Part shown: positions 18,857 to 23,888 of the stretch, in pieces | Layout of the letters: each line of letters begins with the position of its first letter | Numbering within the stretch: the stretch's first letter is position 1 | Assembly: GCA_020072965.1 (NCBI GenBank) | Contig: JAIQFY010000005.1 | Coordinates: 124,001-188,000, forward strand | Origin: Terriglobia bacterium | GTDB taxonomy: Bacteria; Acidobacteriota; Terriglobia; JAIQFV01 | Direction: 5' to 3' | DNA: 64,000 bases | Translations under genes and position numbers: made by a program | The notes under the pieces: generated by a model | What the model was told of the DNA's origin: nothing | Seen by the model: only the letters and a program-made list of their open reading frames with translations | Database searches by the model: none

Positions 18857-20002
18857 TTACTGCGTGCCGATAACTACTCCCACTTCCAGTTTCTCAGCGA
18901 TAGCTTCAGCCATCTCGAGAGTCTTACTCGTTCCTCTCATGTCGTAAGTCCTCACTTGACCTTCCTTAATCACATGCGCAACGGCCCTCTCCAATTTTCC
19001 GGCTTTCTCTGTTTCTCCAAGCCAATCAAGCATCATCTTAGCGGCCAAAATCGTGGCGATGGGGTTGACCTTGTATTGACCTGCGTATTTGGGGGCTGAG
19101 CCATGGGTCGGCTCGAACACAGCGAGCTTGTCCCCAATATTTCCGGAACATCCAAACCCGAGTCCGCCCACCATCTGGGCGCACAGATCGGAAATGATAT
19201 CTCCGTAGAGATTAGGGGCGACGAGCACGTCGTAATTGAATGGATTCTTGAGTAACCACATGGTCATAGCATCAATATTGGCATCGTCCATCGCGATCTC
19301 GGGATAGCCTTTGGCAACCTCCTTGGCAGTCTCGAGAAACAGCCCATCGGTCGCCCGTACTACATTCGCCTTGTGGACGATGGTGACTTTCTTGCGTTTG
19401 AATCGTCGCGCGAATTCGAAGGCCGAGCGCACGATCCGTTCCGAGCCTTTCCGCGTATTAATTTTACAGGAGACTGCATACTGGTCTTCCGGGAGGTCTT
19501 TGAAGGCCGCAAACGGCTTTGAGAGCCTTGCTAAGGTGTCCGATAATTCCTTTGGTACGGTATTGAACTCCACGCCGGAATAGAGGTCTTCGGTGTTTTC
19601 TCGAAATACCACCAGGTTGATTCCTTCTTTGAAGTTCAGAGGATTTCCGGGATAGGCAATACAAGGTCGCAGGCAAATATAGAGATCAAACAGTTGCCGC
19701 ATCCGGACAATGGGGGATCGATAAACCAGGCTTTTCCCCTTGAGCCCTGGGACGAGTTCAGCCTCCGCCGCCTTTCCCGGCTTTGAGGTGATGGCCCCGA
19801 ACATAGCGGCATCGACATTCTTAAGCAAGTCGATGGTTCGCTGCGGAAAAGCGTCTCCTTCCTTGCACCAGAACTCCCATCCGATGTCCCCGTGAATGTA
19901 ATCGGCATCCAATGCCAATGCGTCCAGAACGATCTTTGCCGCTTCCAGGACTTCGACGCCGATTCCATCTCCCGGCAACCATGCGATTTTGTATTTGGAC
20001 AT
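18857..20002 (-). CDS. Isocitrate/isopropylmalate-family beta-decarboxylating dehydrogenase
   Basis: Oxidises and decarboxylates a 2-hydroxy-3-carboxy acid. It is 381 residues, starting at an ATG with AAGGAG before it. WLPGDGIG opens the fold. The substrate loop RSPIVRMRQLFDLYICLRP (95-113) aligns with E. coli isocitrate dehydrogenase but has Ile98 where that enzyme has Asn115. FRENTEDLYSGVE and APNLYGDIISD (metal Asp) follow. The cofactor loop HGSAPKYAGQ...KVNP keeps the Lys-Tyr and Val pattern of NADP+-dependent isocitrate dehydrogenases. An NADP+ enzyme is therefore likely, but the missing Asn makes isocitrate uncertain; methylmalate or a homologue is possible. It is the first gene of the five-gene operon. 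Confidence 0.9.
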   Translation of the reverse strand: MSKYKIAWLPGDGIGVEVLEAAKIVLDALALDADYIHGDIGWEFWCKEGDAFPQRTIDLLKNVDAAMFGAITSKPGKAAEAELVPGLKGKSLVYRSPIVRMRQLFDLYICLRPCIAYPGNPLNFKEGINLVVFRENTEDLYSGVEFNTVPKELSDTLARLSKPFAAFKDLPEDQYAVSCKINTRKGSERIVRSAFEFARRFKRKKVTIVHKANVVRATDGLFLETAKEVAKGYPEIAMDDANIDAMTMWLLKNPFNYDVLVAPNLYGDIISDLCAQMVGGLGFGCSGNIGDKLAVFEPTHGSAPKYAGQYKVNPIATILAAKMMLDWLGETEKAGKLERAVAHVIKEGQVRTYDMRGTSKTLEMAEAIAEKLEVGVVIGTQ

Positions 20003-20505
20003 AACGACTCCTTATTCAATTCGGTAGTTTGGCTTGGTTGAAAATAATGTCCGGTTCCTGGTTTTGGGATATTGGTCAAAAACCGACTTCACTTTTCAGA
20101 GGGCGGTAAGCATTCGGGGATAATTTGAAATTCAGAGCGTAAACAGCCTCTTTAAGCGCCTCCAGCCTTGCCAAACCTTGGAAACCTCTCCTCTTAAAGC
20201 CTCAAGCCATTCCGAATCTCGTTTCTTCCACTCAGCGAAGGCTCGCCTTGTGCAAGAATTCACACGAATCTTACCACTAACGGTCAGTTGAATTCAAACT
20301 CTATCTCCAGGTAACAATTTTCTTGGGACGAACACATCAATTTTCTGGCACTAATGAGTGATAAAAATTGGCCGCGAAAGCTGAATTCCGTGCAATATCC
20401 ATTGAGGATGAGCAAAGATATAGACAGGAAATAATGCGAATGGTGAATCACCTGAATGTGCGGCTTCGCCACCGATTATTGCGGAAAGGCTTGCCGTCCC
20501 GCAAG
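20003..20505. other. Upstream region of the dehydrogenase operon
   Basis: About 500 nt with no gene I can support; the operon promoter should lie here. On the - strand a frame of about 50 codons ending at 20132 is rich in Arg, Trp and Lys, but it has no ATG and no clear ribosome site, so it is not called. The right end (from about 20490) already belongs to the imperfect outer part of the inverted-repeat element at 20506. Confidence 0.45.
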
Positions 20506-20787
20506 GCGCATACGCGTCAACCTAAGACCGGAGTAACGAGCGTCCATAATCCCCCCGGCGGAAGCCGGGGGATGATTCAGCTACAACCTACAGCAGCGAT
20601 CCCATTTTCATTATCTTATCTCACCCCCCCCATCCCGCTTCGCGGGATGGGGGGGGTGTAGTTTATTTTTGGAGTCTGTGTTTGTGGGCTGTACTTGAAC
20701 TTTCCCCCAGCTTCCGCTGGGGGGATTCGACAGAACCGTCCCCCTCCCCCTTTAAAATCAATCCTCTTTAGGTTGACGCATATGCGC
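20506..20787. repeat. 282-bp hairpin-rich element with terminal inverted repeats (MITE-like)
   Basis: The ends are 20-bp inverted repeats, GCGCATACGCGTCAACCTAA (20506-20525) against the complement of 20768-20787, with one mismatch. Weaker pairing continues outward by about 15 bp on each side (CCGTCCCGC... against GGCGGGAGGCGG). Inside are three perfect GC-rich hairpins: 20552-20571 (8-bp stem), 20622-20658 (17-bp stem, 3-nt TTC loop) and 20704-20723 (8-bp stem). There is no coding capacity. A non-autonomous mobile element or a structured RNA fits; no target-site duplication is obvious. Confidence 0.65.
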
Positions 20788-20923
20788 AAGGCGGGAGGCG
20801 GCAGAGCCGCTGCGCCTCACCAGAATTCTTGAAGCCATTACCACATCTGCTTAGCATCGAATGGTTCCTTGGGAAAATGCGCTGGGATTGTCACGTCTGA
20901 ATGATGCAATGGCGTTGTTAAGG

Positions 20924-20957
20924 AAAAAAGGCTGGGGCGAGCGGACTCGCCCCAGCC
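20924..20957 (-). terminator. Intrinsic terminator of the CxxCH/IPT protein gene
   Basis: GGCTGGGGCGAG (20930-20941) pairs perfectly with CTCGCCCCAGCC (20946-20957) around a 4-nt loop. Read on the - strand the stem is followed by six T (20924-20929). It lies 18 nt past the stop codon at 20976. Confidence 0.92.
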
Positions 20958-20975: not shown

Positions 20976-23888
20976 TTACTTGAACGTCGCACCCCCCTTG
21001 GAGGGAATGTTAAAGATGAAAGAGCCGCTGACCTGATCATTCAGAGGCAAGGCCAGGGGAGAACCCGTGTCGCTGAAGAACGTCAGCGTGCCAGACGAAG
21101 CAGAGGACCCCGACGGGTTCAACAGGATCAATTGAGTCTGGTAGCCACCAAAAGCAACTAGCTGCGGGAAGAAGACCGGAGCGGTCGAGGAGGATTCTGT
21201 CGCCACGGGCAGTGTGGTCAACAACGCATCCCCGCGTTGATTGTTCGTTGCAAGGAGGGTCAACGCGGAAATGCCGTCGGTACTGGGGGTCTCGATGGAA
21301 AGTGCCCCGGTTAAATTTTTGGCCTCATTGTTTGTGAAGATCTGATCCACGAATAAGGCGTCGTGACCATGTGGCGGCAAGGCACTATGCCCGGCAACTT
21401 GACTCAGATTCTTGCTGGCGATCACCGAGCCATCACTAAGCCTTCGAAGTTTGAATGAGACGTCTGCACTCTGAGTGCCTGAAGGGTTTGCCAGGGCGAC
21501 GCCGGTATCCTGGGCAAGTCCACTCACGTTGGGATTCGTGTCCGCCAGAATCAATCCTTCCCGAATCACTGGGGATGCCGGGACACCCGCCGTAGTGAAT
21601 GTGAACCCGTTCTGTGTCTGCGTGAAGAGTCCCGTCCCGACTGGCGTAGCCTTGCCTGCATCCGGAACGACAAGGGCAAACCCCGTGGTCAGTGCTCCTG
21701 TTCCCACGGAGAGTGCGGAGAATTCACCTCGCGAAGAGATGCTGTAAGGGAGCTGGGTGACAGGTCCGCTGCCATTCATATTAAAGCTGGCTGGGGATCC
21801 ATCATCCTTGAAGAACAGAATGTTGCCGCTGATCACATTGCCGGTGGTGTTCAAGAGAATGATTCGGGTTTGATATCCCGCTCCATCCACCAGTTGAGCG
21901 AACACCAGGTTCCCGCTGGGAGGGGGCACCGTAAGATCGGCTACCGGAAAGGAGGTAAACAAGGCTTCATTTCGGGGGGCCTGATTGTTTGTGAGTTGGA
22001 GCGTCAGGGCGCTGATAGCAACATCACTATCTACCTTGAGGGTTCCCGTGAAGTTGTTTACCCCGGAGCCGAAGAAATCAGTAATGAATCCCTGGTCGTG
22101 GGCTCCCGGAGCCAGGTTTTTGAAAACCGGAGCCATGGCTGAGGTGCCATCGGGATTAAGCAGGGTGTACGTCAAGTGAGCCGTGCTGCCCGACTGGTTG
22201 ATAACGGCCACGCCCGTGTTGTTCTGGAGCGCACAGTTGGGCAGGGAACAAGCGAACGGCTTGGAGTCCGCAAACATGAGCAATGATGAGGTGGGGGTTG
22301 CCGAGGCGGTTCCCACCGTGGTGACCAGGACGTTGTTCTGGGAGAAGCTGAAAATACCACTGCCCGCCGGGGCTTCACTGGTGGCGGCAAGCTCCGCCGA
22401 TTTCAACCTTCCATCAATCAGCATTGGATCCGTTCCCGAATCCAGTGATTCGGCCCTCTTGCTGGCTGCAACTGTGGCGACCGCATAGGCGGTCTTAAGT
22501 TGGGTGTCATCGAAGTACGAAAATGCACCGGGCAGAGTTGCCGACTGGCCATCCGGATTCTGCACCTTCAGGTCCACGGTTCCCGCGCTGCTCGCCGGTG
22601 GGGAAACAACGGTTAGTTGCGAGGAACTAACGAATGTGGTGTCAGCCTGACTGGTTCCGAAGATCATTTTCGCCCCGCTCACAAAGTTTGAACCGTTGAT
22701 AGTAATTACGGCGCCTCCATGAATGCTGCCGATGTGAGGGAAGCTAGCGTTTGAGGATGCAAATTGAGGCGCCGACGAAGCAGGTGACTGGTTATAGGTG
22801 AATCCCCCTGGAAGCGTTGCAGACTGTCCGTCCGGGTTTTGAATCCTCAATGTGATTGCCCCGGCCACTGCGGCGGGAGGTGATATGGCCGTGAGTTGGG
22901 ACGAACCCACAAAAGTTGTAGTGGCCGCCGTGCTCCCGAAGGAAACCACAGCCCCCGTGACAAAATTGGATCCGTTAATCGTGACGGTCGTTCCCCCCGC
23001 GGTGCTGCCGGTGTTGGGCGAAACTGGATTCGAAACGGCAAAGAGGGGGGCTGGCGCTGCAGCCTGCGTGTACGTGAATCCCCCGGGAAGGGTCGTTGAT
23101 TGTCCATCTGGATTTTGAACTTTGAGAGTGACCGCCCCTGTCGCGGACGCAGATGGTGACACGGCCTTAAGTTGAGACGAACTCACAAAGGTTGTACTAG
23201 CTGCCGTGCTCCCGAAGGAAACCACAGCCCCCGTGACAAAATTGGATCCGTTAATCGTGACGGTCGTTCCTCCCGCCGTGCTCCCGCTGCTGGGTGAAAC
23301 CGGATTGGAGGAGGCGAATTGAGGTGCAGGTTGCGAAGCCTGCGGAGTGGCGGTGACTGAATTTTGCGCGAAATAATCACCTCGATATCCGGAGACGGAG
23401 GCAACGTCGAATTGAACTGTGCCGGCCGTTGCTGCGGGCGCGGTCCAGCTCACACTCCAACTGCATGAACTCGCTCCGGAACATCCGGCTGTGGTCTGTC
23501 CAACATAGGTGACTCCGCCGCTGGTGCCGTTGATTCCGGTGCCGGCACTTTGTCCCGCCAGGGTCCCGGCCTGGGCGCCGCCGGGTGTTGAGCGTGATGA
23601 AATCTGAAATCCATATCCTGAACCCGGGCTGGGAGGAGCCATCGTGACCGTGATTGTATACTGCTGTCCGGGCGTATAGTTCGAAGGAGTTCCCGAGACA
23701 CTCAGTGAAGTGTTGCTGGTGGTCAAAGAGGAGTGACATGAAGTACAAGTACTGGAACTCATCCCTCCCGTTCTTCCCGCGGGAGCTCCACTGGGGTAAC
23801 CAGATAGGAAGGTTGCGGTGGCGAAAAAGATCGTGAATATCGTCACAAATATCCATAAAGAAAATTGAGATTGCTTCACAAGTTTCAT
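20976..23888 (-). CDS. Secreted CxxCH-containing protein with three IPT/TIG domains
   Basis: A 970-residue exported protein. Residues 1-30 are a signal peptide (LWIFVTIFTIFFATATFLSG). A CTSCH motif (48-52) lies in a segment like the choice-of-anchor V/reeler-like domains (PSNYTPGQQYTITVTM, GFQIS), so one covalent haem c is possible. Three IPT/TIG beta-sandwich repeats follow at about 190-460, each with the GGTTVTINGSNFV-like core. The C-terminal half (about 490-965) has two related 200-residue repeats marked by DTGVALANPSG or NTGVAVINQSG, ISALTL.L.TNNQ and GYQT.(I/L)ILLN. A surface or extracellular role is likely; the ligand is unknown. The start follows a GGAGA site. Confidence 0.8.
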   Translation of the reverse strand: MKLVKQSQFSLWIFVTIFTIFFATATFLSGYPSGAPAGRTGGMSSSTCTSCHSSLTTSNTSLSVSGTPSNYTPGQQYTITVTMAPPSPGSGYGFQISSRSTPGGAQAGTLAGQSAGTGINGTSGGVTYVGQTTAGCSGASSCSWSVSWTAPAATAGTVQFDVASVSGYRGDYFAQNSVTATPQASQPAPQFASSNPVSPSSGSTAGGTTVTINGSNFVTGAVVSFGSTAASTTFVSSSQLKAVSPSASATGAVTLKVQNPDGQSTTLPGGFTYTQAAAPAPLFAVSNPVSPNTGSTAGGTTVTINGSNFVTGAVVSFGSTAATTTFVGSSQLTAISPPAAVAGAITLRIQNPDGQSATLPGGFTYNQSPASSAPQFASSNASFPHIGSIHGGAVITINGSNFVSGAKMIFGTSQADTTFVSSSQLTVVSPPASSAGTVDLKVQNPDGQSATLPGAFSYFDDTQLKTAYAVATVAASKRAESLDSGTDPMLIDGRLKSAELAATSEAPAGSGIFSFSQNNVLVTTVGTASATPTSSLLMFADSKPFACSLPNCALQNNTGVAVINQSGSTAHLTYTLLNPDGTSAMAPVFKNLAPGAHDQGFITDFFGSGVNNFTGTLKVDSDVAISALTLQLTNNQAPRNEALFTSFPVADLTVPPPSGNLVFAQLVDGAGYQTRIILLNTTGNVISGNILFFKDDGSPASFNMNGSGPVTQLPYSISSRGEFSALSVGTGALTTGFALVVPDAGKATPVGTGLFTQTQNGFTFTTAGVPASPVIREGLILADTNPNVSGLAQDTGVALANPSGTQSADVSFKLRRLSDGSVIASKNLSQVAGHSALPPHGHDALFVDQIFTNNEAKNLTGALSIETPSTDGISALTLLATNNQRGDALLTTLPVATESSSTAPVFFPQLVAFGGYQTQLILLNPSGSSASSGTLTFFSDTGSPLALPLNDQVSGSFIFNIPSKGGATFK
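22927..23270. repeat. Identical 68-bp blocks inside the IPT-repeat gene
   Basis: Bases 22927-22994 and 23203-23270 are identical over 68 bp and encode the same part of IPT domains 2 and 1. The flanks differ, so this is a local recent duplication or gene conversion between tandem domains. Confidence 0.85.

Follow-up and report, generated by a model that had tools for sequence, protein, structure and literature searches.

What is the palindromic patch that lies between two genes in this DNA? The window, which is the whole stretch of 64,000 nucleotides that was analysed, carries it between an isocitrate/isopropylmalate dehydrogenase gene (18857-20002, minus strand) and a TIG-domain gene (20976-23888, minus strand). 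An earlier note, made from the letters of the window, had considered a MITE-like element, a REP-type composite and a structured RNA. The analysis indicated that the element is a MITE, neither a unique patch nor mainly a structured RNA. It is quite likely that this MITE is non-autonomous and is moved, or was once moved, into the loops of GC-rich hairpins by an IS4-family transposase with IS231-like ends.

Boundaries and structure of the element

The proposed 20-bp ends with one mismatch were confirmed, as 20506-20525 and 20768-20787 differ at a single base. The proposed boundaries at 20506-20787 (282 bp) enclosed a real element and were too wide by 3 bp on each side. The aligned copies concur from CAT to ATG, and the bases beyond vary between copies yet repeat on both sides. 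The outer 3 bp, GCG/CGC, belong to the target duplication in the copies. Therefore, the element spans 20509-20784 and its true size is 276 bp. Its parts and its target are as follows.

20509..20784, strand arbitrary (imperfect palindrome): MITE of 276 bp; alignment of 21 copies with sharp ends, target duplication directly outside
20509..20525, + strand: left terminal inverted repeat CATACGCGTCAACCTAA; copy alignment, fit to the printed IS231-subgroup end signature
20768..20784, - strand: right terminal inverted repeat CATATGCGTCAACCTAA; end-pattern matches, copy alignment
20500..20508, + strand: left copy of the 9-bp target duplication CGCAAGGCG; perfect match to the right copy
20785..20793, + strand: right copy of the 9-bp target duplication CGCAAGGCG; perfect match to the left copy
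20497..20499, + strand: TCC, outer part of the left arm of the target hairpin split by the insertion; sequence, 6-bp stem in the empty site
20794..20796, + strand: GGA, outer part of the right arm of the target hairpin split by the insertion; sequence, 6-bp stem in the empty site
20552..20571, + strand: inner hairpin 1, 8 bp, loop GGAA; by reading, consensus pairing with inner hairpin 3
20622..20658, + strand: central hairpin, 17 bp, 3-nt loop; arms 20622-20638 and 20642-20658, 100% paired
20704..20723, + strand: inner hairpin 3, 8 bp, loop TTCC; by reading, consensus pairing with inner hairpin 1

The three GC hairpins described earlier as perfect are real, with full pairing in the central one and 8 perfect pairs in each of the flanking two. 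Inner hairpins 1 and 3 also pair mutually (45-nt arms, 80%), and the terminal arms lengthen to 29 nt at 86% identity in inverted-repeat detection. The tip of the central hairpin, TCCCGC-TTC-GCGGGA (20633-20647), has the same form as the element's own target. The element had been described as abutting the upstream region of an operon. This was loose, as the facing gene, that of the dehydrogenase, starts about 500 bp off. The TIG-domain gene on the other side has a terminator-like hairpin at 20930-20957. The same gene contains two tandem direct repeats of 276 nt with 78% identity (window 22788-23339).

Copies of the element and spread of its ends

The own genome (5.92 Mb, 108 contigs) was searched with a 331-bp stretch and 85 matches were obtained. 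Manual reading of these matches gave at least 36 separate places of at least 108 bp. Beyond the 36 places, an intron interrupts the element at two ends and two matches are fragments; the remaining matches are palindromic self-matches and pieces. The alignment of 21 two-ended copies (285 columns, lengths of 262-279 bp) had conserved ends and a mean column identity of 90%. Pairwise identities were from 85.8 to 97.8%, the latter being that of the closest pair. The end pattern matched 23 times forward and 29 times in reverse, and the reversed-pattern control gave 0 matches in both directions. The placement is intergenic: at 21 of the 22 own sites no open frame of at least 200 aa spans the insertion point, compared with 78% of random window positions lying within one. 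The site list of this test, like that of the end and target table given below (4 versus 20), is without at least copy L014. The element is short and non-coding, has terminal inverted repeats and is present in many copies with target duplications, as a MITE should be. The guess of a MITE-like element was thus right. A unique palindromic patch, the other outcome foreseen by the earlier note, is excluded since the genome-wide search found other copies, with target duplications.

Two copies (L099 1-173 and L100 1-174, at the first bases of contigs C29 and C6) are broken beside inner hairpin 1. The interrupter is the end of a group II intron (Rfam RF00029, 53.7 bits each), and this intron, which prefers hairpins, seems to land at those of the element. 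In copies L012, L016, L019, L026, L028 and L029, the CATACG tip is exchanged for a GC palindrome, e.g. CCCGCCGCGGCGGG, which gives the impression that another small palindrome took the place of the tip or converted it.

Outside the own genome, the exact 20-bp end was found in 68 stretches of 15 other genomes. The bins with the end are labelled Verrucomicrobia, Kiritimatiellae, Lentisphaerae, Bacteroidetes, KSB1, PVC group and uncultured, and such metagenome-bin labels may be wrong. The same ends enclose other interiors, which differ among the genomes inspected and are mostly 42-600 bp long; some short interiors in one bin contain runs of N, so the lengths there are uncertain. The exact end plus G is rare in the window's class, being present in 2 of 299 genomes with the own one included; it is present in 2 of the 3 genomes of the family, the sole same-genus genome being without it. 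Plasmids and phages gave no match to the element. Viral contigs gave 0 matches for two end patterns and 0 relatives of the transposase piece of locus L077 described below.

A rival reading is a structured RNA or attenuator family, in which a long hairpin transcript would be under selection and the copies would spread passively. The fold is indeed very stable (z-scores against shuffles of -8.05 for the single strand as DNA and -12.66 as RNA with flanks), and the central hairpin followed by T-rich DNA has a terminator-like score on the + strand. The RNAalifold fold of the copies is also strong, but covariation contributes just -0.59 of its -101.49 kcal/mol, and of the 70 consensus pairs only 7 show two-sided changes. 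These changes concentrate in the central hairpin, as would suit an RNA; they could also be explained by palindrome correction during replication. In the whole window, 0 Rfam matches reached the gathering threshold and the hits were sub-threshold only. Moreover, the ends persist while the interiors vary across the other genomes, and target duplications and empty sites exist. We regard such an RNA family as improbable. A structured RNA, raised by the earlier note, is not supported as the main explanation; the element may have an RNA function but does not need one.

Hairpin targets and their duplications

The window site minus one duplication reads GTCC-CGCAAGGCG-GGAG and forms the hairpin TCCCGC-AAG-GCGGGA with a 6-bp stem. 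A survey of targets was carried out with 67 two-ended copies pooled from the own genome (25) and other genomes (42), after one row was removed as a duplicate. The pairing of ends was restricted to 40-900 bp. A duplication of 9-11 bp with at most one mismatch was found in 43 of the 67 copies (29 exact), and the control with right flanks shuffled among copies gave 3.5% (1.25% exact). The duplication was 9 bp in 18 copies, 10 bp in 21 and 11 bp in 4. The own genome contributed 19 of them, 13 with 9 bp, three with 10 bp and three with 11 bp. Of the 43 duplications, 40 are bounded by CC at the left side and by GG at the right side. A stem of at least 6 bp was found at 22 of the 29 exact sites, against 0.3% of 20,000 random positions. 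Stems of at least 8 bp were found at 13 of the 29, against 8.7% with right flanks swapped between sites. Since these longer stems exceed the swapped-flank control, the palindrome reaches past the shared core. The insertion sites are mostly hairpins of the form CC^CGC-N3/4-GCG^GG. The boundaries are fixed at CC^CGC and GCG^GG, and a loop of 3 nt goes with a duplication of 9 bp, one of 4 nt with a duplication of 10 bp. A duplication that follows the loop is expected if the place of the cut depends on the two half-stems or on an extruded hairpin. The REP-type composite of the earlier note was partly right, as the element sits within REP-like palindromes; those are the target, not the element itself.

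Direct duplications are absent from 24 of the 67 copies. In 18 of these neither a direct duplication nor an inverted loop is seen; several of them probably stem from ends paired wrongly or from decay of the copy, and all are kept in the count. In the other 6 the loop is inverted between the two sides, which is what template-switch correction predicts. From this, the hairpin arms could be taken as part of the element that varies through palindrome self-correction in replication, with no choice of target. We consider this very unlikely in view of the direct duplications of the 43 copies, the existence of related sites without the element, and the arms, which run on into unique flanks. Four loops in the set of 22 own sites are self-complementary and hence uninformative.

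Two related empty sites were found in the comparison of joined flanks. Those of copy L004 matched locus L319 over 137 bp at 87%, and those of L014 matched L322 over 141 bp at 89%. The joined flank of the window copy matched L325 over 64 bp at 78%, which is a weaker case. The own genome has 45 occurrences of TCCCGC-N3-GCGGGA and 0 of the same pattern backwards, also a palindrome. According to the coordinates, 26 of the 45 are central hairpins of element copies and 19 are elsewhere, and the related empty sites are among the 19. Host palindromes of the form AGCCCAGGG...CCCTGGGT were seen at the own loci L311, L312 (C12), L020, L024 and L107, and they look like a repeat family doubling as target.

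Four own copies form a subfamily with altered ends, T-AACC at both sides. All four are in GGGC-N3-GCCC sites with 11-bp spacing, whereas such sites were found for 0 of 20 other copies (Fisher p 9.4e-5). The difference suggests a coupled evolution of ends and target. One of the four copies is without a clean duplication. All four are a related group, and the association may be a single evolutionary event.

For the understanding of the insertion, the following pathway is proposed for the MITE. The transposase would bind the 17-bp ends and excise the element, probably by cut-and-paste. The element would then be inserted into the loop of a GC-rich REP-like hairpin, CC^CGC-N3/4-GCG^GG. Staggered cuts at a constant position of the stem would leave a duplication of 9 bp at a 3-nt loop or 10 bp at a 4-nt loop. 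The target may be read as duplex half-sites or as an extruded hairpin. A tentative and rather doubtful extension is that an extruded hairpin or half-stems are recognised in place of a fixed-length duplex, that the element's own central hairpin seeds landing sites, and that the T-AACC ends coevolve with their target.

REPINs are short, intergenic and built of hairpins, and the element is likewise. A target duplication is generally not expected of REPINs, whereas the element has one; size and ends also differ. A REPIN-like origin would mean copying by a REP-associated tyrosine transposase (RAYT) acting on single-stranded hairpins. This would suit a hairpin-rich, intergenic and multi-copy element, and the excerpt of PMC3733652 reports a Verrucomicrobium with GTAG-type REPs and proposes RAYTs as the movers of these. 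Target duplications of 9-11 bp and DDE-type ends argue against such copying, and we hold it to be highly improbable. Movement by RAYTs is not known to produce duplications of this kind.

Mobilising transposase and related systems

The IS231-subgroup ends are printed as CAT-------AA--TAA in Table 1 of PMC2266710, and the ends of the element agree with 8 of the 8 fixed positions of this signature. In the excerpt of the same paper, the duplication of the IS4 family spans roughly one helix turn and ranges from 7 to 13 bp among the subgroups, and the duplications of 9, 10 and 11 bp here fall within this range. That of the IS231 subgroup is 10-12 bp (excerpt of PMC2266710), and the own genome mostly has 9 bp. 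Since 9 bp is the common length, the element is not filed in the IS231 subgroup. The likeness to IS231 lies in the end signature, in a duplication of about one helix turn and in target specificity, which the excerpt also gives for IS231 (PMC2266710). The element differs in its mainly 9-10-bp duplications, its hairpin-loop targets, the lack of a transposase aboard and its hosts, which are outside the Bacillus cereus group. The target of IS231A is GGG-N5-CCC, which equals the 11-bp class here, GGGC-N3-GCCC. Transposase-less IS231 cassettes (MIC231) are known.

A Verrucomicrobiales bin (L077) has an identical 17-bp end, followed after 170 bp by an IS4-type transposase fragment at which the contig stops. 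The fragment is a 79-aa front piece (NF033592, E 4.3e-10, 39 bits with the cut-off at 115) and has an in-frame stop just upstream. IS4-family enzymes are DDE transposases with the signature Y(2)R(3)E(6)K, and of this candidate the assembly covers the front piece only. On three other contigs of the same bin (L073, L081 and L090), the end stands directly after a short C-terminal-like frame. This frame resembles the one adjoining an end in L094 (44% over 27 aa, E 0.03), and the L094 C-terminal piece had no match in plasmids, Pfam or NCBIfam. Relatives of the L077 fragment were found in Bacillaceae plasmids with 27-34% identity. The three relatives inspected have the ends CATGCCCATCAACTTAAG or CATGCCCATCAAGCTAA, and by manual count CATGCCCATCAACTTAAG shares 14 of 18 positions with the end in the window. 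Indirectly, these sequence matches point to an IS4-type transposase as the putative mover. The own assembly contains 4 PF01609 hits, none with these ends, and assemblies may miss repeats. A search of 396 genomes from the window's phylum gave no match to the L077 fragment, and among the 15 other genomes carrying the ends the fragment matched its own genome only. No paired ends around a transposase were found at the PF01609 loci of these 15 genomes (30 loci and 38 further stretches), and inward walks from single ends in 40 stretches gave no full element.

According to the excerpt of PMC1525189, IS elements from five families target REPs; the IS4 case is ISRm22 of Sinorhizobium meliloti, every copy of which is in REP palindromes. 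The element shares with ISRm22 the IS4 family and the placement in REP palindromes; ISRm22 differs as a full-length IS of subgroup IS4Sa, not a MITE, described from one species. IS1397 and ISKpn1 (IS3) and IS621/ISPpu9 (IS110) also insert into REP sequences according to this excerpt (PMC1525189), and they differ in transposase family and chemistry and are not miniature. REP targeting by IS elements is a known precedent on which the element varies. The literature on MITEs in hairpin or REP targets, or of this kind, yielded no account of the element, which is not proof of absence. Matches of the end motif in the literature look like chance primer matches, as judged from the listing alone.

Transposons that target hairpins strike intergenic repeats and spare genes, and such a safe haven may explain their persistence. 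A stem-set duplication that follows the loop, if true, would mean that target structure dictates the cut spacing of a DDE transposase, which is rarely seen. The family also supplies one common end motif for searching poorly studied phyla. GxxExxY (PF13366) was rejected as the mover, as it is between these ends at only 1 of 35 loci (5 own and 30 from 11 other genomes). The one case is an 840-bp element with these ends (L185 1243-2082, G014:C262), in which the GxxExxY gene lies between inner inverted repeats and is regarded as cargo or a nested case.
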